From the NCBI GenBank assembly GCA_023129715.1, contig JAGMBO010000040.1:1-64000 (forward strand): a DNA stretch of 64,000 nucleotides. Reading direction: 5' to 3'. The notes beneath the pieces are model-generated. The model ran no database searches and was not told the DNA's origin. It worked only from the letters and a program-made list of their open reading frames with translations. Each line of letters opens with the position of its first letter. Position 1 is the stretch's first letter. Origin of the DNA: Candidatus Eiseniibacteriota bacterium. Its GTDB lineage: Bacteria > Eisenbacteria > RBG-16-71-46 > CAIMUX01 > WJJG01. The translations under genes and the position numbers were made by a program. Below are positions 1,531-64,000 of this stretch, in pieces.

Positions 1531-3969
1531 ATGAGCATCCGTTGCAGCTACTTCTCGTGCACTCTTCTGAGTTTGGTTCTTCTCTTCGTCATGACGTCGT
1601 TCGCTGCGGCCTTCCAGGTCATTCCCGTGCCGCAGAATCCGTCTCACCCCGCAATCCCCCATCTCGCCTACAATGACCGACCCATCCTTTTCAAGGCAAT
1701 CGCCAGGGATGCGGGCTGCGCCAGCGTTTACTTCCGTTGGGACTTCGACGGGAACGGGGTGTGGGATACGTGCCTGGGACGAACTCCGGCCATCCCCACT
1801 GGCAGCTGGTATCTGGATGATGCCTATCGAATCGACGGTGCGTGCGTCCTCCCCTACGTCGATCCTGCGGTGAGCGAGGAAAAGCTGTATATCGCCACTC
1901 TTCAGGTCGCAACTGCCGTTTCCCCCGATGGTATACCCGCCGACCCGGTCTTCGCCTCGTACTGCGTGCTTCTGGACGCTACGGTGCCAGGCCCGGAAGC
2001 GGCAGAGCAGGCGGCTGATGACGATCTGGCTGTCATGCGCATGGTCGCGATTGACGATGCTCTCTGGTACTTGCATGAGCAGATGACGCGCATCGGATCG
2101 GGCACGGCCACGATCACCGGCTACTTGGGCCCGGATTCACACCGGAGCCAAGTGACCGCGCTCTTCCTGCTGGCCATGCTCGCTCATGGCCACTACGGGG
2201 CGTATCCGGTCGGAACCTACGATCCGATGGGTCTCCCCGTCCCACCCGAATTCCTGGAGGAGAACGATTGGCGCTATGCACACGATCCCTATGCCGAAGA
2301 TGTCATTCGCGCAACCAACTACCTGCTGATGCAGATGGGCAGCTATGCGATTCCCGCGGCAGACGAGGGAGATGACGGGTATCCCGCGCTCGCCGGGACG
2401 AATGACTTGACCGGATACTACGTGAGTTCTCACCTCGGCGACGAGTTCGGCCGGGGCGGGCTAATGCTGGCTGCGCTTGCGGCCAATGGCCTGGAGGGTA
2501 CCGCGGTGCAGGTGGCATCGCCATTGGTGTCGGGCCAGCTCATGGAGTTCGTCGTCCAACAGTTCGTCGACTTCGCCGTGGCCGCGCAGAACGATGCAAC
2601 CGTGGATCCGACCCTCGTGGGGGGTTGGGGTTGGCAGCCCTGCCTCGATTGCGCGTCGAACTCCGTGGCCTCGCACATCACGAGCTTCTGGGTTCTCGGG
2701 CTGGAAACGGCCGAGCGGAAGATGGGGCCCAGCGGCGTATATGTGAATCAGCGACTCAAGACCCGTTTGCCGAACGCGGTCTACTACAACCAGCATTCCG
2801 ACGGCGGACCGCGCTACTACACGGGCGCCACCAACTCTATCTTCGAGACCGTCGGAGGGGCGATCCTCGCCTGCCGTTGGATGCAGTGGGACAGCTGGGA
2901 CACCGCCGACCCGACGCCGACGGGATATCCACATCTGGCCATCACCCGCGGCGAGGCGCGCGGGATCTACGATGACTATATCAACTACACGAATAGCCAT
3001 TGGAATATGGCGGGTGGCACGGGGAACATCTACGATCCCACCCGCGCACTCTGGAAGGACGGCCAGCCGGTCGACATCACACCCTGCTACGATGCGGACA
3101 TCTGGACTCTGTCGGGCAGCCTCCTATGCAAAGGGGCGCGGTATCGTGGAGTGACGGATCCGTTGGAGTTGATCGGTGGACACGACTGGCGACACGACTT
3201 CGCCGTCAGCCTCGTCGAGGGGCAGCATCCCCACTCAGATGCATGCCCACCGTACCTCTGGTTCGACTTCTTTCACGAACCGGGGGCTTCCCTGGTCGGG
3301 GCCTACCTGGGAGATCGGGGTGCAACGGCACATGCCGTGCTCATGGCCGCAACGGAGAACATGGCCCCCGTCGCCGTACTCGGCGCCTCGCCCTGTCATG
3401 GGGGTGAATGCTCGAGCGATTGCTGTGTCGACACACAGACCGATGTCGCTTTCGCCGCGGGAGCCTATGATTCCGACGGCCTGATTGTCGAGGCCAGCCT
3501 CGACTTCGGCGACGGGAGTCCACCGGTCGAGATAGCGCCTCCCGAAGACGTGGTCTACTACCGCTACACGTCTGCAGGCATCTTTCCAGCGGTATTGACC
3601 GCTACTGATGATGAAGGCGCTACTCGTGCCGATACGCTGGTGATGGAGGTGGAGGAACCCAGTGAGGTGCTCCCGGAATCGCTCCCGAGGCGCTATCGCC
3701 TTTATGCATCTCGGCCGAATCCGTTCAGCCCGCGTACGGTAATCGCGTACGAGCTCCCCGAAGCCGTACCGGTGACAATTGAGATCCTCGATATCACCGG
3801 ACGGGCCGTCCGGACGTTGGTCGATGGGGCGCGTGAGCCCGCCGGCCACCGGCAGATCCTCTGGGACGGGCGTGATCACCGCGGCCAGGCGCTCCCCTCC
3901 GGCGTCTATTTCTGCCGCATCCATGCAGGACCCTATCGTGAGACGCGAAGGCTGATTCGGAGCCGGTAG
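1531..3969 (+). CDS. Secreted alpha/alpha-toroid-like protein with PKD and FlgD-like C-terminal domain
   Basis: Exported protein of 812 residues. The ATG at 1531 follows ACAGGAGGTTCTCCC, a clear Shine-Dalgarno, and opens a signal peptide (MSIRCSYFSCTLLSLVLLFV...FAAA); the upstream 50 codons in the track are not needed. The middle (about residues 170-600) holds repeated helical motifs such as GGWGWQPC, FWVLGLETAER and GGPRYYTGATNSIFETVGGAIL that recall prenyltransferase/squalene-cyclase-like toroids, but I cannot assign a substrate. About 615-715 is a PKD domain (FDGDGSP-like stretch LDFGDGSPPVEI, DDEGATRADT). The last 90 residues are the FlgD-Ig-like module (NPFSPRTVIAYELP, GRAVRTLVDG, LWDGRDHRG, SGVYFCRI). 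Several Cys near the PKD domain suggest disulphides and an extracytoplasmic site. Confidence 0.8.
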   Translation: MSIRCSYFSCTLLSLVLLFVMTSFAAAFQVIPVPQNPSHPAIPHLAYNDRPILFKAIARDAGCASVYFRWDFDGNGVWDTCLGRTPAIPTGSWYLDDAYRIDGACVLPYVDPAVSEEKLYIATLQVATAVSPDGIPADPVFASYCVLLDATVPGPEAAEQAADDDLAVMRMVAIDDALWYLHEQMTRIGSGTATITGYLGPDSHRSQVTALFLLAMLAHGHYGAYPVGTYDPMGLPVPPEFLEENDWRYAHDPYAEDVIRATNYLLMQMGSYAIPAADEGDDGYPALAGTNDLTGYYVSSHLGDEFGRGGLMLAALAANGLEGTAVQVASPLVSGQLMEFVVQQFVDFAVAAQNDATVDPTLVGGWGWQPCLDCASNSVASHITSFWVLGLETAERKMGPSGVYVNQRLKTRLPNAVYYNQHSDGGPRYYTGATNSIFETVGGAILACRWMQWDSWDTADPTPTGYPHLAITRGEARGIYDDYINYTNSHWNMAGGTGNIYDPTRALWKDGQPVDITPCYDADIWTLSGSLLCKGARYRGVTDPLELIGGHDWRHDFAVSLVEGQHPHSDACPPYLWFDFFHEPGASLVGAYLGDRGATAHAVLMAATENMAPVAVLGASPCHGGECSSDCCVDTQTDVAFAAGAYDSDGLIVEASLDFGDGSPPVEIAPPEDVVYYRYTSAGIFPAVLTATDDEGATRADTLVMEVEEPSEVLPESLPRRYRLYASRPNPFSPRTVIAYELPEAVPVTIEILDITGRAVRTLVDGAREPAGHRQILWDGRDHRGQALPSGVYFCRIHAGPYRETRRLIRSR

Positions 3970-51433: not shown

Positions 51434-54223
51434 TCATTCGGTAACCGTCACCATGCGGATGCAGCCCGGCACGGGGCAGACGAGCGGACAGAGCCCACAT
51501 CCGACACACCGATCCGGATCGATCTCCGGTAGACGCTCCGCGCCGATGCGGATCGCCCGGTGCCCTCCGTCATAGCACGCCCGGAAGCACCGGCCATCGC
51601 GGATGCAGAGCGCCTCGTCGATCTGCGCGCGGACCTTCCTGCCCCGCGGAAGCGCCTCGTGGGAGACGACGCGGGGCAACGCGGCGCCGGTCAGGTCCCG
51701 CGGAGTGCGCAGCTCTCGCCGATCGAGATAGCCCGCCAGACCCTGCACGAGATCATCGATGATCGCGAAGCCGAAGTGCATGACCGCGGTGCAGAACTGG
51801 ACCGTGCTTGCCCCGGCGAGCATACAGGCAACCGCATCGCGCCAGGTCAGCCCCCCCCCGGTTCCGGTGATCGGAAGGTCCACGCGGGCAGCGATCGTGG
51901 CGACCGTGCGCAGGGTGATCGGGAGGATCACCGGGCCCGAGAGCCCCGAGTAGGTTGATTGCCCTTCGAGGTCGGGCTGCGGCACGTCGCGCTCGAGATC
52001 GATCCCCATCAGCGCGGGAATCGTATTGCTTGCACAGATGCCGTCGGCGCCGGCTTGGGCGGCAGCCTCGGCGATCGCCCCGATGTCGGCCACTTGGGGG
52101 GTCAGCTTGATGACTACCGGCACACGCCGCGCGGCTGCCTTGACCCACCCGGCGACCTCGCGCACGAGCGCGGCATCCTGGCCCAGCATGGCCCCGGGTT
52201 GACTGCCCGGGGTTCCCTGCGGACAAGAGAAGCTGCATTCGATCCAGTCGACACCGGCCGCTTCGAGGCGCGCCACCAACGACTCCCACTCCTCGCGCCG
52301 CGAGCCCGTGATGCTCGCCCCGATGACCTTGCCCGGAAACTCCTTCTTGAGCGTCGCAATGCGCTCGGCGATGCGGTCGATGTGGTGTTCGGAGATGAGA
52401 TCGATATTCCCCATCGCACGCGATGGACCCAGCGGCGCCCCCATGCCCGACATCATCGGATAGGCGAGCGGAACCGGCGTGCCCTCGACCGAGGTCGTCT
52501 TGAGCACCGCCCCGGCCCATCCGGCCCGGAAGGCATCGCGCAGCATATCGAGGTCATCGGTCGGCGGCCCGGCGGCCAGCAGGAAAGGACTCTCGAATTC
52601 GAGACCGCAGAAGCTCACGCGTAGATCGGCCCGGGGCGGATGATGAACCGGCAGGGGCCAGCGACGCTCACGATTTGCCGACAGGCTCCGCGCGGGTCCC
52701 TCGCCCGCCGCTGCTCCCGCCGAGGCGCCGGCCGCTCCCGGCTGTGTACGCGTCGCCGCGAAATGCACATCGATCGCCTCGGCCGCCGCCTTGGCCATGG
52801 CGATTGCGGAAACGGCGACCCCGGGACCGGCGGCGACATCACCGGCGACGAAGACCCCGGGATGAGAGGTCATGAACGTATCGGGATCGTGGCGGATGCA
52901 ACCCCGCTTGTCCGTCTCGAGCCCGGCGATCCCCGCGGGCTGAAGACCCGCCGCAACGAGGAGATCGTCACAGGGCCAGAGGAAGGGCTCTCCATCGGCG
53001 ACATAGCGGCGGGCGGCGCGACCACCCGTCTCCCAGCGAACTCGCTGCAGCCGCATACCGGCCAGCGTCTCTCCCGCAGCCGGCACGCCGACCGGCCCCT
53101 CTCCCACGACCGTCACACCGACCGGCCCCTCTCCCACGACCGTCACACCGGCCGACCCCTCTCCCACGACCGTCACACCGGCCGACCCCTCTCCCGCGAC
53201 CGTCACACCGGCCGGCCCCTCTCCCACGACCGTCACATTAGTGGACGCCTCCCCGGCAACCGGCTCATCAGAAGCGGTGATCTCGAGCGGCATCACCCGG
53301 TAGAGCAGCTCGACACCTTCACGAGCGGCGGCCGCAACCTCCGGGGCGTACGCCGGCATCACCTCTCGATCGCGCCGGTAGAGCAGGGTGACGTCGCACC
53401 CCATGCGCCGCGCTTCGCGGGCGGCGTCGATCGCCGTATCGCCCCCTCCGACAACCGCCACCCGGCGTCCAAGGGCCGGGGGCTCTCCCGCGCGACAGGC
53501 GCGCAGGAAGGCGGTCGCCATCCGCACCCGCGCGTGGGCATCCCCCGGGATCCTCAGGGGGACCGGCTCGGCCGCGCCGGCGGCGACCAGGACTGCCGCG
53601 TAGCCGCCGGTGAGCAACTCGGCAGGGGCGCCGACCTCCGCGCCCATGCGGAACTCGACGCCGAGGGCTTCGACCAAGGAGATGTCGTGATCGAGCACCT
53701 CGACCGGCAATCGCGTCTGCGGAATCGTCGTGCGCAGCAGTCCACCGGCCTCCGGTTCCCGATCGAAGAGGGTGACCGCGAATCCTCGCCGGGTCAGCTC
53801 CGCCGCCCCGGCGAGGCCGGCCGGTCCCGCGCCGATCACCGCGACGCGTTCACGCCAGGGCGCCACCGGCGCGACCGCGAGCCCGCCCTGCTCACGCTCC
53901 CAGCGGCAAACGAAGCGCTGCAATCCGGAAATGTCGATCGGCCGATCAAGCGCCTCGTGCAGGCAGCGCCCGACGCAGAGATCACAGACGGGGCAGAGCT
54001 CGGCACACACACCGGCCAGAATGTTGGCTTCCCGCAGATGGCGGGCGGCCCCCGCCAGATCGTCGAAGCGGATCTTGCGAATGAACGTTCGCGGATCGAT
54101 CGCCGAGGGGCATCCGGCCCGGCAGGGCGGGTCCTCGCAGAGCAGGCAACGAGACGCCTCCGCCAGGGCCGCCGCCGGCTCCCAGACCTCGGCCAGCCTT
54201 CGGGGATCAGCCGATTTCGACAT
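51434..54223 (-). CDS. Fused PreT-PreA type dihydropyrimidine dehydrogenase-like flavoprotein
   Basis: 929-residue protein joining both halves of bacterial PreT/PreA, as in animal DPYD. ATG 54223 with GAGAGGAA before it; the track's upstream 220 codons are antisense. Order: Fer4_20 region (CLLCEDPPCRAGCPSAID, CAELCPVCDLCVGRC); FAD site VAVIGAGPAGLAGAAEL; NAD(P) site VAVVGGGDTAIDAA; a repeat insert near residues 325-384; GDVAAGPG; then a dihydroorotate-dehydrogenase-like FMN barrel (VKLTPQ as VIKLTPQVADIG, ITGTGGGLTWRDAVACMLAGAS); and a C-terminal 2x[4Fe-4S] domain. In the first C-terminal cluster the second ligand is Asp876 (CIRDGRCFRAC); the second is intact (CVGCGLCPLVC). The loop with the catalytic Cys of pig/human DPD reads GAMLGQD, without Cys. 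It overlaps the GT-C gene by 17 bases. Confidence 0.87.
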   Translation of the reverse strand: MSKSADPRRLAEVWEPAAALAEASRCLLCEDPPCRAGCPSAIDPRTFIRKIRFDDLAGAARHLREANILAGVCAELCPVCDLCVGRCLHEALDRPIDISGLQRFVCRWEREQGGLAVAPVAPWRERVAVIGAGPAGLAGAAELTRRGFAVTLFDREPEAGGLLRTTIPQTRLPVEVLDHDISLVEALGVEFRMGAEVGAPAELLTGGYAAVLVAAGAAEPVPLRIPGDAHARVRMATAFLRACRAGEPPALGRRVAVVGGGDTAIDAAREARRMGCDVTLLYRRDREVMPAYAPEVAAAAREGVELLYRVMPLEITASDEPVAGEASTNVTVVGEGPAGVTVAGEGSAGVTVVGEGSAGVTVVGEGPVGVTVVGEGPVGVPAAGETLAGMRLQRVRWETGGRAARRYVADGEPFLWPCDDLLVAAGLQPAGIAGLETDKRGCIRHDPDTFMTSHPGVFVAGDVAAGPGVAVSAIAMAKAAAEAIDVHFAATRTQPGAAGASAGAAAGEGPARSLSANRERRWPLPVHHPPRADLRVSFCGLEFESPFLLAAGPPTDDLDMLRDAFRAGWAGAVLKTTSVEGTPVPLAYPMMSGMGAPLGPSRAMGNIDLISEHHIDRIAERIATLKKEFPGKVIGASITGSRREEWESLVARLEAAGVDWIECSFSCPQGTPGSQPGAMLGQDAALVREVAGWVKAAARRVPVVIKLTPQVADIGAIAEAAAQAGADGICASNTIPALMGIDLERDVPQPDLEGQSTYSGLSGPVILPITLRTVATIAARVDLPITGTGGGLTWRDAVACMLAGASTVQFCTAVMHFGFAIIDDLVQGLAGYLDRRELRTPRDLTGAALPRVVSHEALPRGRKVRAQIDEALCIRDGRCFRACYDGGHRAIRIGAERLPEIDPDRCVGCGLCPLVCPVPGCIRMVTVTE
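53071..53250 (-). repeat. 30-bp in-frame minisatellite inside PreTA
   Basis: Six consecutive 30-bp units (plus-strand CTCCCACGACCGTCACACCG plus ten more bases) encode ten-residue repeats GVTVVGEGPV/A. The inner four units are nearly identical, a sign of recent expansion; the outer ones have diverged. Confidence 0.9.
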
Positions 54224-55874
54224 AGGTTCCTCTCTGCACGACGGTCCGCGGGAGCTGGGGGGCGAAAGCACGTAGGTGCTCGGCGAGCGACCGCGCGGCA
54301 AGCCGATCGAGCGCGTAGAAGGCGATCGTATCGCCCCCGTTGACGATGTTCTTCTCGATCGTCCAGGACCCGACCCGCTCCCAGGACGCCGGTGTGCGGA
54401 GCCAATTGGGATGGAGAATGGCCACCCGGGCGCCATGCGCGCGCGCCAGGCGGTCGACGGTTTCCACGCCATAGGTGCCGGCGCGGATGTGCGCCAGCAC
54501 CTCGCGATTGGCGAGTCCGAAGAGGTCGAGACAGCGGATATCGGCCAGGAAATTCGCCGCCCCGATGTCGTTGATCGCCACCGGTGCTGCAGGATAGTAG
54601 CGTGCCAGGAAGTGGCCCATCTGGACTTGCTGCTCATAGATGTTCGCCGTCGCCCGCGGAGTCGCGAGTGCGGCGCGCACGCCGCGGTCACCGACGGCCA
54701 CAACGAAGAGGATGCCCAAGAGGATCGCCGCCGGTCGGCGCCAGCGAACGTGCGACTCCCCGCGCCGCCCGCCACCTGCGGCCGCCTGCAGTTCGAAGAG
54801 CGCGATCCCCAGCCCCACCAGGGCGAGGCCGACGAGGTAGGCCTCATAGCGATAAAACCAGCCAACGTCGGCAAAGGTGACATGCAGGAAGGTCGCGACG
54901 AGAAAGATCGTCAGCAGCGGTCGGGCGAGCGAACCCTCCCCGGCATCTCGTCGCGGGGCGCGGACGAGCCAGACCAGCGCCGCGATGACCGGCAGCAACA
55001 GATGGGGATTGACGAATAGCCGGCGCAGCGCGAGGTAGCCGCTGAGGCTTTTCAGCATCTGGCCGGGATCCCCGTGCGGAAGGTTGGCCTTGCTCAGGAT
55101 CGGATTCGGGATCAGCGCCCAACCCTGCTGCATCGAGAAGAGCCCATAGGCCACCAGGGGCGCGAGGGCAAGGAAACCAAGGAGCACCCCTTGGCCCCAG
55201 CGGCGCCGGGCGGCCAGCAGCATGATCACCGGAAGAATGACGAAGAGACTCTCGTAGCGCACCAGGGTGAGTAGGGGGGGCAAGATCCAGAACGCCGCCC
55301 GCGCCCGCGGACCGAGCGGCTGCCGGCCATCCAGCAGGCGCGCGGCCAGGTAGGCGAAGAGCAGGACGAGCAGCAGGTGCAAGACGTGTTCCTGTCCCGT
55401 CATGACCAGCGGCGCCAGCGGAACGCAGAGCACGAGGACGATCAGGACGATCGCGGCAAGCCCCCGGCGGCCAGGCCGGCCGGCATCCAGCATGCATCCG
55501 ACCACGACGATGACGAGTCCCGCTGCCAGTACATTGAGAATCAGCGGGATCGTCGGCTCGACGCCCGCTACGACGAACCCCCCTCCCAGGAGCAATGTCC
55601 ACAGGGGCGACGATGTTGAGGAGGTGAACTCGTAGCTGGTAACGCCCCAGACGCCATGCTGCGCCACGTTCTTGGCCATCGCCATGTGGATGTAGGGATC
55701 GTCCAGCGCGTAGGTCAGCCGGCCCTCGGTCAGGCCGAGACTCTGCAGCAGGAGAAGCGTGATCATCAGGATCAACACCGCGCCCGCCGCCCCGACCGCT
55801 ACCGGTATCCGGGCTGCGCCTGTCACCGGAAGCCGGCCCGCGGCCACCACCGGATGCTCTGCGCGCTGGGCCAT
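54207..55874 (-). CDS. GT-C-like polytopic membrane glycosyltransferase
   Basis: 555-residue membrane protein with about ten helices and a soluble C-terminal domain. ATG 55874 follows AAGGGGACACG; the track frame starts 89 codons earlier without support. The first outside loop carries YALDDPYIHMAMAKNVAQHGVWG, the acidic pair expected of polyprenyl-phosphate-sugar-dependent GT-C enzymes, and YEFTSSTSSPLWTLLLGG resembles the following re-entrant region. RYE at LTLVRYESLFVILP and FADVGWFYRYEAYLVGLALVG are also typical. The C-terminal domain (YYPAAPVAINDIGAANFLADIRCLDLFGLANREVLAH) matches this family's usual end. It probably glycosylates a surface polymer or protein. It precedes and overlaps the PreTA gene, an odd partnership. 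Confidence 0.8.
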   Translation of the reverse strand: MAQRAEHPVVAAGRLPVTGAARIPVAVGAAGAVLILMITLLLLQSLGLTEGRLTYALDDPYIHMAMAKNVAQHGVWGVTSYEFTSSTSSPLWTLLLGGGFVVAGVEPTIPLILNVLAAGLVIVVVGCMLDAGRPGRRGLAAIVLIVLVLCVPLAPLVMTGQEHVLHLLLVLLFAYLAARLLDGRQPLGPRARAAFWILPPLLTLVRYESLFVILPVIMLLAARRRWGQGVLLGFLALAPLVAYGLFSMQQGWALIPNPILSKANLPHGDPGQMLKSLSGYLALRRLFVNPHLLLPVIAALVWLVRAPRRDAGEGSLARPLLTIFLVATFLHVTFADVGWFYRYEAYLVGLALVGLGIALFELQAAAGGGRRGESHVRWRRPAAILLGILFVVAVGDRGVRAALATPRATANIYEQQVQMGHFLARYYPAAPVAINDIGAANFLADIRCLDLFGLANREVLAHIRAGTYGVETVDRLARAHGARVAILHPNWLRTPASWERVGSWTIEKNIVNGGDTIAFYALDRLAARSLAEHLRAFAPQLPRTVVQRGTYVEIG

Positions 55875-58368: not shown

Positions 58369-59493
58369 TCATCCGGCGCCGGCGTTGCCGCGGGATGACC
58401 CGGGCGTTCCTGCGATGCCGTCACCGGCGTTGCCGCGGGACGACCCGGGCGTTGCCGCGGAGCCGCCGGCGGCGTCCCGCCGCGTGCACATGCCTTGAAC
58501 AATCAAGGTCTCGGCAATCTGGATCGTGTTGAGCGCGGCGCCCTTCCAGAGCTGATCTCCCACGACCCAGAAGCGCACCACCCGCCGGTCGGCTTCACCG
58601 ACCCGGATGCGGCCGACATAGGTCGCCTCGCGGCGGGCAAGCTCTCGCGGCGTCGGCAACTCGTGCAGCTCGACACCCGGCGCCCCCTCCAGCGCCGCGG
58701 TCACGTCCTCGAGGGTCACGGGCCAGCGCAGCCGGACCAGCACCGACTCGGAATGGCAGCGTTCGACTGGAACGCGCACCGTGGTCGCGTAGACGGCCAG
58801 GTCGGCCCGGCCGAGGATCCGGCGGGTCTCGTCGACCATCTTGACCTCTTCGAGACACGCCCCATCCGCGCCCAGCTCGCCCACCTTGGGGATCAGATTG
58901 AGGAAGATCGGGCGGTCGTAGTGCTGCCAGGTCTCGGCCTCCCCCCGGGCAAAGGCGCGTGCCTGACCGAAGAGCTCATCGACCGCCGCCTGGCCGGCAC
59001 CGGAGACCGATTGATAGGTGGAGACAACGATCTCCTCGACGCCGAAGGCCCGCTCCAATGCGGCTACCGGCAAGATGAGCATGATCGTCGAGCAGTTCGG
59101 ATTGGCGACGATGCCCTTCACCGGGCGCGTGGCGAGTTCAGCGGCGTTGATCTCGGGAACGACCAGGGGGACATCCGGATCTTCGCGAAACGCCGAGGAG
59201 TTGTCGACGACCAACGCCCCCGCCGCGGCGAAGCGCGGCGCTTCCGCCCGCGCGACCTCCTTGCCCGCGGAGAAGAGGACCAGATCGAGACCGGCCGGAT
59301 CGGCGCCCGCCAACGCCTCGACGGTGATCTCCTCGCCGCCGAACTCGATCCGGCTGCCCGCCGATCGTTCGCTGGCCAAGAGCCGCAGGCGGCGAATCGG
59401 AAAACGGCGCCGCTCGAGCAGCGCCAGAAACTCGCGACCGACGAGCCCGGTCGCCCCGACGATCCCTACATCGAGGGCAGGTGTGGTTGCCAT
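58369..59493 (-). CDS. asd: Aspartate-semialdehyde dehydrogenase
   Basis: 374-residue NADPH enzyme making aspartate semialdehyde from aspartyl phosphate. ATG 59493 (MATTPALDVGIVGATGLVGREFL) follows GCGGGAGTC. GATGLVG is the nucleotide loop, DNSSAFRED the phosphate contact, and Cys134 in NPNCSTIM the catalytic nucleophile; VERCHSESV carries the catalytic His. The last 34 residues are a low-complexity tail of two related units (AATPGSSRGNAGDGIAGTPG...), coded by a roughly 45-bp repeat, not found in ordinary Asd. The stop abuts the lysC start, so the two are coupled. Confidence 0.93.
   Translation of the reverse strand: MATTPALDVGIVGATGLVGREFLALLERRRFPIRRLRLLASERSAGSRIEFGGEEITVEALAGADPAGLDLVLFSAGKEVARAEAPRFAAAGALVVDNSSAFREDPDVPLVVPEINAAELATRPVKGIVANPNCSTIMLILPVAALERAFGVEEIVVSTYQSVSGAGQAAVDELFGQARAFARGEAETWQHYDRPIFLNLIPKVGELGADGACLEEVKMVDETRRILGRADLAVYATTVRVPVERCHSESVLVRLRWPVTLEDVTAALEGAPGVELHELPTPRELARREATYVGRIRVGEADRRVVRFWVVGDQLWKGAALNTIQIAETLIVQGMCTRRDAAGGSAATPGSSRGNAGDGIAGTPGSSRGNAGAG
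58379..58459 (-). repeat. About 45-bp direct repeat at the end of asd
   Basis: CCGGCGTTGCCGCGGGA starts at about 58379 and again at about 58424, each followed by a near-identical GACCCGGGCGTT. It encodes the Gly/Ser/Ala tail of Asd (TPGSSRGNAG units). Confidence 0.7.
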
Positions 59494-59557
59494 GACTCCC
59501 GCATTGCGCCGCAGGCGTCTATTCGGCGCGGGGGGGGGGCACTGACAGCGGGCGCTG

Positions 59558-59579
59558 CCGGCGGCGGCACCGCCGCCGG
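59558..59579 (-). terminator. GC-rich hairpin after hflC
   Basis: CCGGCGGCGG and CCGCCGCCGG pair perfectly around CA, 55 bases past the hflC stop and just before asd. A G/C-rich run is next to it rather than a T-run. Confidence 0.5.
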
Positions 59580-59634
59580 GCCGCACCCTGCGCGGCGATC
59601 GTCACTCGCCGGCTGCCGCCGCACCCCCGCCGCT

Positions 59635-61691: not shown

Positions 61692-61891
61692 GGTGGTCCG
61701 CCCTAAATCGGGTAAGCTGCATGGCCGATTGCGGTTCCGAATTGCCCCATTCCCCACGACGCGGCTTGCCGGTACAATCAGAGTCGACCGCAGCGCGGCG
61801 GCGATGTCGAGGGTTGCGCCCCGTTCGACAACGGATGCCAACGCCGGCGTGGCGGCGATCGGACTGGTTGCAAGCCACCGGGGAGGACATC

Positions 61892-64000
61892 ATGTCCGCA
61901 CGATTCGATCGACATCGCCCCGGCCTCCGGGCCATGGCCTTCACCGGTCTGATCCTGGTCTCCGGCCCGGCGGCCCAGGGCAGTGATCTCTCGGGCGCAC
62001 TCTCGGGGTATCTCCCCGCGGGGACCTACCGGATCGTCGACGACATCGAGGTTCCCGACGGCGAGACCTTGACCCTCGCCCCGGGGGTCGTCTTCCAGTT
62101 CGAGGACAGCTTCTGGGAGGAGTACGAGTTCGACGTCCACGGGACCCTGCACGCCGAGGGCACATCCGGGCAACCGATCGTCTTCCAGGCGGCCTCCGGC
62201 GCAGAGGAGTACAACTACCTGCGGATCGCGAGCAGCACTTCGCGCCTGCGCCACTGCATCATCGAAGACGCCGGCAAGGTCTCGATACTCGACCAGGGCG
62301 GGCTCTGGATCGATAACTGCTCTCCGGTGATTGAAGACTGTACCGTGCGCAACGGGAGCTGGCACGGGATCTATATCACCGGCTCGTCGGCATGCCCGAC
62401 GATTCGCACGACGGGAATCGCGAACAACTCCGGGGACGGCATCGACGGAGACGACGGCGCCGGCATGACAGTGATCAACTGCCGGCTCACCGGCAACGGG
62501 GGCGACGGCGTCTGCGTCGCCGGCGGGGCGAACACTATCATCGGCACGCTGATCGCGCGCAATGGAGAGAATGGCGTCGACAGTCATGGAACGGCCGACT
62601 ATGCCGCGCTCTTGATCAATTGCACGATCGCCGATCATCCGAGCGGTAATCTCTCGGATTGTTCACTGATGGATTTGTACAACTGTATCGCCGTCGGACA
62701 GACATCTTCCGTCGAGCGCTGCGAGCACAGCCTCTTCGTCTCCGACGCCGCCTACTATCACTTCGTCGACTATGCGGCCGGTGACCTCCGGTTGGCGCAC
62801 GACTCGCCCGCGCGCAACTACGGCACCCGCTTCGGCCCGCCGGCCGGCTGGCTGCCGGCGGAAGACCTCGCGGGTGAGAGTCGCATCCAGGGCATCGTCG
62901 ATGCGGGCGCCTACGAGTCGGCGGGATTGCCCGAGCTGGGCGAGGAGGGTCCCTACTTCTCCCGGGCGCTGATCGCACCCCGGATGACGCAGCCGGTCTT
63001 CCGCACGCCGGAAGAGAGCTTCCCGGCGCTGGTCGGCCTGCTCGGCGACTACACCGCCGGCGAAGCCTGGGCCCAATTGGTCGATCCACTGGGCAACGTC
63101 TGGCCCTTGACGGTGCTCGCACTCTCTGCGCACGACTTGACGCCGGGAAGCGATCTCGCGGTGCAGCTCTTTGCCCCCGGACTCGAGCGGATCCAGGAGC
63201 TGAGCCTGCAGATCCCGATCGGCACGCCGGCGGGTCTATGCGATATCCGCCTCGGAATCGGGGAGCGAGAGTTCTACAGTCTGCATGCCGTGAGAGTCCT
63301 CACCACCTACCGGCAGACCTGGCGCTTCATCCACATCACCGATCCCCACATCGGGTATGATGCGGAGGCCTTCTCCGCCGCTTTGCGCCTGCGCATCTTC
63401 ACGCGTGAGGCCAACTTCCTGCAGCCCGATCTGGTCGTCCTCACCGGAGATATCTGTGATAACCAGGACCCGGGCACTGAGGCCTTCGTCGATAGTCTGC
63501 TCGAGGCGGTCGCCTTGCTGCGAGTCCCGATCCTGATCCAACCGGGCAATCACGATCACTACAACAACGGCAGCAACGGCGGCTACGATCCCGGCTACCC
63601 GCTGCGCTACTTCGAGCGAATCAACCGCTATCGCAATTGCCACCTCGAGCTCGGCGGCGCGCACTTCTTCGCCTTCAACACAGGCGACGATCTGGGCCTG
63701 CTCGAGCTCTACCGCTGCCGCGGCCCTGAGTCGCCAGCTCTCGATTGGGCCGAGAGCATCTTGATCGGCCTCGCTCCCCTCGCCGACCGGCCGCGCTTCT
63801 TCCTAATGCATGGGCCCAACTACGACTACTTCACTTGGAACTCCGAGAACGTCGGCCGCGTGCGGGATCTGATGAACGCGCACGCGATCAGCCTTTGTCT
63901 CTGCGGGCACACGCACCGCTTCGAGACCTTTCTCAACAGCGGAGAGAACTACCTTGGACGCGACGATTTCAAACACGTGGATGATTGGGGCCGCGACGTC
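61892..64000 (+). CDS. Secreted beta-helix/calcineurin-like metallophosphoesterase fusion (partial)
   Basis: Open frame of 703 codons that runs past the window end and is absent from the ORF track. ATG 61892 follows GGGGAGG; MSARFDRHRPGLRAMAFTGL begins a signal peptide ending near AAQG. Residues about 30-330 are a right-handed beta-helix (GVVFQFEDSFWEEYEFDVHG, RHCIIEDAGKVSI, PVIEDCTVRNGSWHGIYITGS). A beta-sandwich follows, then a metallophosphoesterase domain from about 470: HITDPHIGYD (DxH), VVLTGDICDNQDPG (GDxxD), LIQPGNHDHYNN (GNHD), LMHGPNYDYF and CGHTHRFE (GHxH). All metal ligands of the family are present. It should hydrolyse a phosphoester outside the cytoplasm, with the helix binding a polymer. 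Its C-terminus is unseen. Confidence 0.88.
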   Translation, partial: MSARFDRHRPGLRAMAFTGLILVSGPAAQGSDLSGALSGYLPAGTYRIVDDIEVPDGETLTLAPGVVFQFEDSFWEEYEFDVHGTLHAEGTSGQPIVFQAASGAEEYNYLRIASSTSRLRHCIIEDAGKVSILDQGGLWIDNCSPVIEDCTVRNGSWHGIYITGSSACPTIRTTGIANNSGDGIDGDDGAGMTVINCRLTGNGGDGVCVAGGANTIIGTLIARNGENGVDSHGTADYAALLINCTIADHPSGNLSDCSLMDLYNCIAVGQTSSVERCEHSLFVSDAAYYHFVDYAAGDLRLAHDSPARNYGTRFGPPAGWLPAEDLAGESRIQGIVDAGAYESAGLPELGEEGPYFSRALIAPRMTQPVFRTPEESFPALVGLLGDYTAGEAWAQLVDPLGNVWPLTVLALSAHDLTPGSDLAVQLFAPGLERIQELSLQIPIGTPAGLCDIRLGIGEREFYSLHAVRVLTTYRQTWRFIHITDPHIGYDAEAFSAALRLRIFTREANFLQPDLVVLTGDICDNQDPGTEAFVDSLLEAVALLRVPILIQPGNHDHYNNGSNGGYDPGYPLRYFERINRYRNCHLELGGAHFFAFNTGDDLGLLELYRCRGPESPALDWAESILIGLAPLADRPRFFLMHGPNYDYFTWNSENVGRVRDLMNAHAISLCLCGHTHRFETFLNSGENYLGRDDFKHVDDWGRDV

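Follow-up and report, generated by a model that had tools for sequence, protein, structure and literature searches.

The window analysed here is a stretch of 64,000 nucleotides of a Candidatus Eiseniibacteriota genome (G000), and at its 3' edge it carries the 5' part of a gene encoding a secreted-type protein of 997 amino acids. The gene (61892..64885, plus strand) is a single open reading frame starting with ATG at 61892 on the contig that carries it (C122, 120102 bases), and is cut by the window edge at 64000 after residue 703, with 2109 bases inside. The initial annotation had taken this open frame to be a real gene continuing beyond the window, had proposed that the contig be extended to look for a FlgD-like module at the C-terminus, and had named a frame break as grounds for dismissal. 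On reading further in the same contig neither a stop nor a frameshift is found anywhere before the stop that ends at 64885, and the C-terminus is reached with a FlgD-like module that is weak in this protein and above the cut-off in three orthologues. A chance or artefactual origin of the frame is excluded by full-length orthologues, since these share the identical layout at about 55-57% identity. A 34-base DNA match elsewhere in the genome (contig C126) is surrounded by unrelated genes and has not been accepted as homology. A scan for promoters and terminators gave nothing that exceeded shuffled sequences.

The domain organisation of the protein includes a signal peptide, a right-handed beta-helix, an Ig-like domain, a calcineurin-like metallophosphoesterase, a second beta-sandwich and a C-terminal domain of the FlgD/type IX secretion (T9SS) type. 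The parts encoded within the window are listed in the table; the parts that follow, from the remainder of the insert through the second beta-sandwich to the FlgD-like end, are encoded beyond 64000.

Features of the beta-helix phosphoesterase gene that lie within the 64,000-nucleotide window
Feature	Position	Strand	Basis or remark
Shine-Dalgarno-like GGAGG	61882..61886	+	5 nt upstream of ATG, direct sequence reading
5' part of 997-aa ORF, residues 1-703	61892..64000	+	rest outside window, ends G000:C122:64885
Signal-peptide-like N-terminus, residues 1-30	61892..61981	+	basic start then hydrophobic; predicted helix 12-23
Right-handed beta-helix, residues about 31-351, choice-of-anchor-Q-like end	61982..62944	+	Pfam Beta_helix
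Ig-like (FnIII-like) domain, residues about 352-470	62945..63301	+	homology to N-terminal domain of core-only paralogues
Calcineurin-like metallophosphoesterase, residues 478-676, motif residues complete	63323..63919	+	Pfam, motif positions, invariant columns
Start of clade-specific insert right after GHTH, residues 677-703 of about 677-765	63920..64000	+	paralogue comparison

The signal-peptide-like start and the Pfam domains agree with the earlier proposal of one exported chain with an N-terminal beta-helix and an intact phosphoesterase. The structure model of the whole protein has a pLDDT of 60, is poor outside the Ig domains and the beginning of the beta-helix, and is given little weight here. 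A separate model of the core made up of the Ig-like and phosphoesterase domains is of moderate quality (mean pLDDT 75), and its Ig-like domain is mostly above 90.

The Metallophos family (PF00149) has been assigned to the phosphoesterase domain with an E-value of 8e-16 (59.4 bits against a cut-off of 21.5). All eight catalytic residues (D484, H486, D520, N553, H554, H640, H673 and H675) are present in the motifs D484-x-H486, G519-D520, G552-N553-H554-D555, H640 and G672-H673-x-H675, and the metal ligands are invariant across an alignment of 24 homologues, so that the phosphoesterase motifs are intact as had been claimed. This motif set (D-x-H, GD, GNH[D/E], H and GHxH) is that of the class III phosphodiesterases, subclass IIIA, and is held in common with Rv0805, Icc/CpdA and GpdQ. 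These, however, are small stand-alone enzymes, whereas the protein described here adds Ig domains, a beta-helix and an export domain. The spacing between its motifs (32-31-84-31) also departs from the 37/38-28/32-68/70-35/37 published for subclass IIIA, to which CpdA and Rv0805 belong (PMC4320098), and the CpdA model scores 17.8 bits, far below its cut-off of 225.

Comparison of the core profile with solved structures gave as best matches a GpdQ-type phosphohydrolase (2dxl/2zo9/3d03), purple acid phosphatase, Lmo2642, Icc and Rv0805. An externalised nucleotide phosphodiesterase of class III, with extracellular cyclic or free nucleotides as substrate, would be in keeping with the complete motif set and with the place of Rv0805 and Icc among these matches; the misfitting subclass IIIA spacing and the low CpdA score make such an enzyme distinctly improbable. 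The core model matches purple acid phosphatases including their N-terminal domain (Foldseek E 3.5e-12 for 3zk4 and 5.9e-11 for 1kbp). In the plant enzymes, too, an N-terminal Ig/FnIII-like domain precedes the phosphoesterase fold, and in the model comparison the Ig-like domain described here takes the position of that N-terminal domain. Purple acid phosphatases are marked by a tyrosine ligand in the motif GDxxY. Unlike the plant and animal purple acid phosphatases, the present protein has D-x-H as motif I, and Asp523 occupies the position of the tyrosine (G519-D520-I-C-D523). The profile and structure matches indicate the fold and the chemistry, not the substrate.

Relatives have been sought in 47 genomes of Eisenbacteria, in a wider set of 385 genomes and in 20 genomes of the phylum of one relative, G115. 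Within the Eisenbacteria, beta-helix orthologues are encoded in G010, which belongs to the family of the window genome (contig WJJG01000121.1, Candidatus Eisenbacteria isolate Bin_233), and in G006, whose copy ends at the contig end. The closest relative outside the phylum among the 385 genomes is that of G115, for which kinship is given only as "same domain"; in this protein of 633 residues the signal peptide runs directly into the Ig domain and there is no beta-helix. In the phylum of G115, a beta-helix is carried by the proteins of G402 (989 residues) and G400 (cut), and G396 holds a fragment. The beta-helix clade draws its arm-bearing members from three genomes of Eisenbacteria and two of the second phylum, and the protein of G115 is a sixth member without the arm.

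The core of Ig-like domain, phosphoesterase, second Ig-like domain and FlgD-like domain is common in Candidatus Eisenbacteria, usually without a beta-helix, and the form with the beta-helix is rarer. Core-only proteins at 20-25% identity are encoded in the window's own genome (contig C172, 596 residues), in G001, G012-G016 and G025 and in others. They resemble the protein described here in having a signal peptide, an Ig domain, the invariant ligands, a second beta-sandwich and a FlgD-like end, but have neither the beta-helix nor two further features of the clade. The first of these is an insert, about 60-90 residues long, that follows GHxH, shows 45-75% identity across the six members of the clade and is absent from the core-only paralogues; it comes directly after two of the metal ligands and may shape the specificity. 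The second is a D-x-DGDG loop (residue 780; DTDGDG), present in every one of the six clade members but missing from all nine core-only paralogues compared, which appears to resemble a calcium site.

In a search for further beta-helix fusions, twenty stretches were retrieved, most of them centred on additional long phosphoesterase frames in this phylum, and the three such frames that were scanned with Pfam contained no beta-helix. In G004 (L087:549-3578, contig C93) the core has a different N-terminal extension, which ends in a carboxypeptidase-regulatory-like domain, and the core therefore accepts different front parts. In a tree of the shared core (15 rows, rooted on the distant paralogues) the grouping of the clade is firm, and the history of the first gain of the beta-helix is less so. 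The protein of G115 is nested within the beta-helix clade beside that of G400 (support 95/96), and its position among members with the arm makes loss of the arm in G115 the simplest reading. The beta-helix was probably gained a single time in the clade, with at least one later loss. The arm is not required for the persistence of the core, because the core usually occurs without it and G115 retains the core alone.

It had been held beforehand that an architecture that is common and has an established role would undo the case; the core is indeed common but the beta-helix form is not, and a literature search found no paper on the combination of a beta-helix with a metallophosphoesterase. The beta-helix joined to an exported phosphoesterase is a conserved, undescribed variant whose enzyme part is ordinary.

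The right-handed beta-helix is recognised by the Pfam family Beta_helix (PF13229; E 4e-13, 49.7 bits against 25.9) and by TIGR03804 (22.4 bits against a cut-off of 19.45), and its modelled strands (residues 31-220) have pLDDT values mostly of 65-95. The NCBIfam models para_beta_helix and choice_anch_Q fall slightly under their cut-offs in this protein, and choice-of-anchor-Q (NF041518) is above its cut-off in the orthologue of G402. The choice-of-anchor-Q segment is one that precedes varied C-terminal anchoring signals. The Pfam NosD match is attributed to the shared fold, since the NosD copper-maturation model (TIGR04247) gives only 13.4 bits against 300.

When the protein described here is compared with the orthologues that carry the arm, identity amounts to 54-60% over the beta-helix, 55-67% over the phosphoesterase, 42-53% over the first Ig domain and 26-33% over the FlgD-like tail; the phosphoesterase shares 52% with that of G115. 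Invariant positions of the beta-helix are occupied by W, H, D, N and C. A constraint so close to that of the enzyme favours a specific role for the beta-helix, though the arm can be lost. It also tells against a purely structural role, in which the arm, as a spacer or an adhesive stalk, would keep the enzyme off the outer membrane and bind no ligand specifically, as a pure spacer would be expected to diverge faster than the catalytic domain and this arm hardly does. The likeness of the end of the beta-helix to the choice-of-anchor-Q segment and the dispensability of the arm in G115 would suit such a stalk, which on balance we regard as unlikely.

The same identities and invariant residues suggest a specific surface rather than filler, and could be taken in support of the original proposal that the beta-helix binds, or once cleaved, an extracellular or envelope polysaccharide whose phosphoester groups are stripped by the phosphoesterase. 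The full-length model, of low confidence, weakly resembles alginate epimerases and pectate lyase in Foldseek searches, but these matches (E above 1e-3) track the general fold. The description of the beta-helix as of carbohydrate-binding type went beyond the data, as its profile, compared with the PDB, matched no solved structure at an E-value of 0.01, the carbohydrate-active beta-helices included. The close relative in G115 moreover keeps the enzyme without the arm, and no carbohydrate genes are conserved in the adjoining regions; a polysaccharide-directed function is likewise regarded as unlikely on balance. A more specific scheme, in which the conserved beta-helix would recognise one phosphorylated surface polymer and present it to a dimetal site reshaped by the clade insert, with export of a type IX-like kind, is thought quite improbable.

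Neither in the window genome nor at the loci of the relatives is the gene accompanied by a conserved set of phosphate, glycan or lipid genes. It is divergent from hflK/hflC in the window and also in G010; none of the adjoining genes is a phosphate gene, and apart from this divergent pair in the two genomes none is conserved. The neighbours in G006 are diaminopimelate-pathway-like genes, those in G115 are a threonine-synthase-like gene and a phosphodiesterase-like gene, and those in G402 and G400 are different again. Phage and plasmid collections gave no match that would point to such an origin. In G010 a separate secreted, repeat-rich beta-helix-like protein (L005:8153-9487) is encoded directly 3' of the orthologue and is absent from that place in the window's genome.

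The C-terminal region (residues 952-984) matches FlgD_ig with 23.3 bits, below the Pfam cut-off of 27; the orthologues of G402, G400 and G115 exceed it with 31.3, 37.4 and 37.2 bits. Its profile matches the solved structures of FlgD, the C-terminus of gingipain R2 and PorU. The beta-sandwich is in this respect like that of the type IX clients gingipain R2 and PorU, but is of the FlgD_ig type, and the protein does not reach the cut-off of the curated T9SS sorting-domain models. The same genome encodes a homologue of the translocon protein SprA (SprA_N, E 3.2e-22, in a frame of 2296 residues), four PorV-like proteins, all below the NCBIfam family cut-off, and at least 150 FlgD_ig matches. From these features a type IX-like route is inferred as the likely means of export; a literature search found nothing on type IX secretion in Eisenbacteria.

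Taken on sequence evidence, we consider it somewhat more probable than an even chance that the protein is a dimetal phosphodiesterase of the Icc/GpdQ kind which is secreted or held at the surface, acts on phosphodiesters outside the cell and has the beta-helix as an accessory domain for positioning. The Sec pathway would deliver it to the periplasm, from where a type IX-like machine would recognise the C-terminal domain and carry the protein to the cell surface or outside. It could there hydrolyse glycerophosphodiesters, nucleotide diesters or diesters of teichoic or phospholipid type, most likely for phosphate scavenging, and the beta-helix would be the accessory arm that places the enzyme on a surface or polymer.

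The same exported core is encoded both with the beta-helix and without it in two phyla that are known mainly through metagenomes, and this natural comparison makes the contribution of the arm directly testable. The finding overturns nothing established; what it contributes is a conserved candidate for the recycling of extracellular phosphate by little-known bacteria.

Seven further FlgD_ig matches have been identified in the window, at 3742, 5051, 8504, 23594, 24240, 28729 and 49722 (contig C122), and the window is therefore rich in likely exported proteins. Two sets of repeats also lie within it. Six near-identical 30-base repeats at 53057-53237 encode a ten-residue repeat of the VTVVGEGPAG type within a minus-strand frame (51434-54883) whose remaining sequence resembles an NAD(P)-linked oxidoreductase fused to a dihydropyrimidine-dehydrogenase-like part. 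A short tandem repeat with a period of 45 bases at 58373-58475 lies at the 3' end of an aspartate-semialdehyde-dehydrogenase-like frame (58369-59586), where it encodes a repeated TPGSSRGNAG tail.
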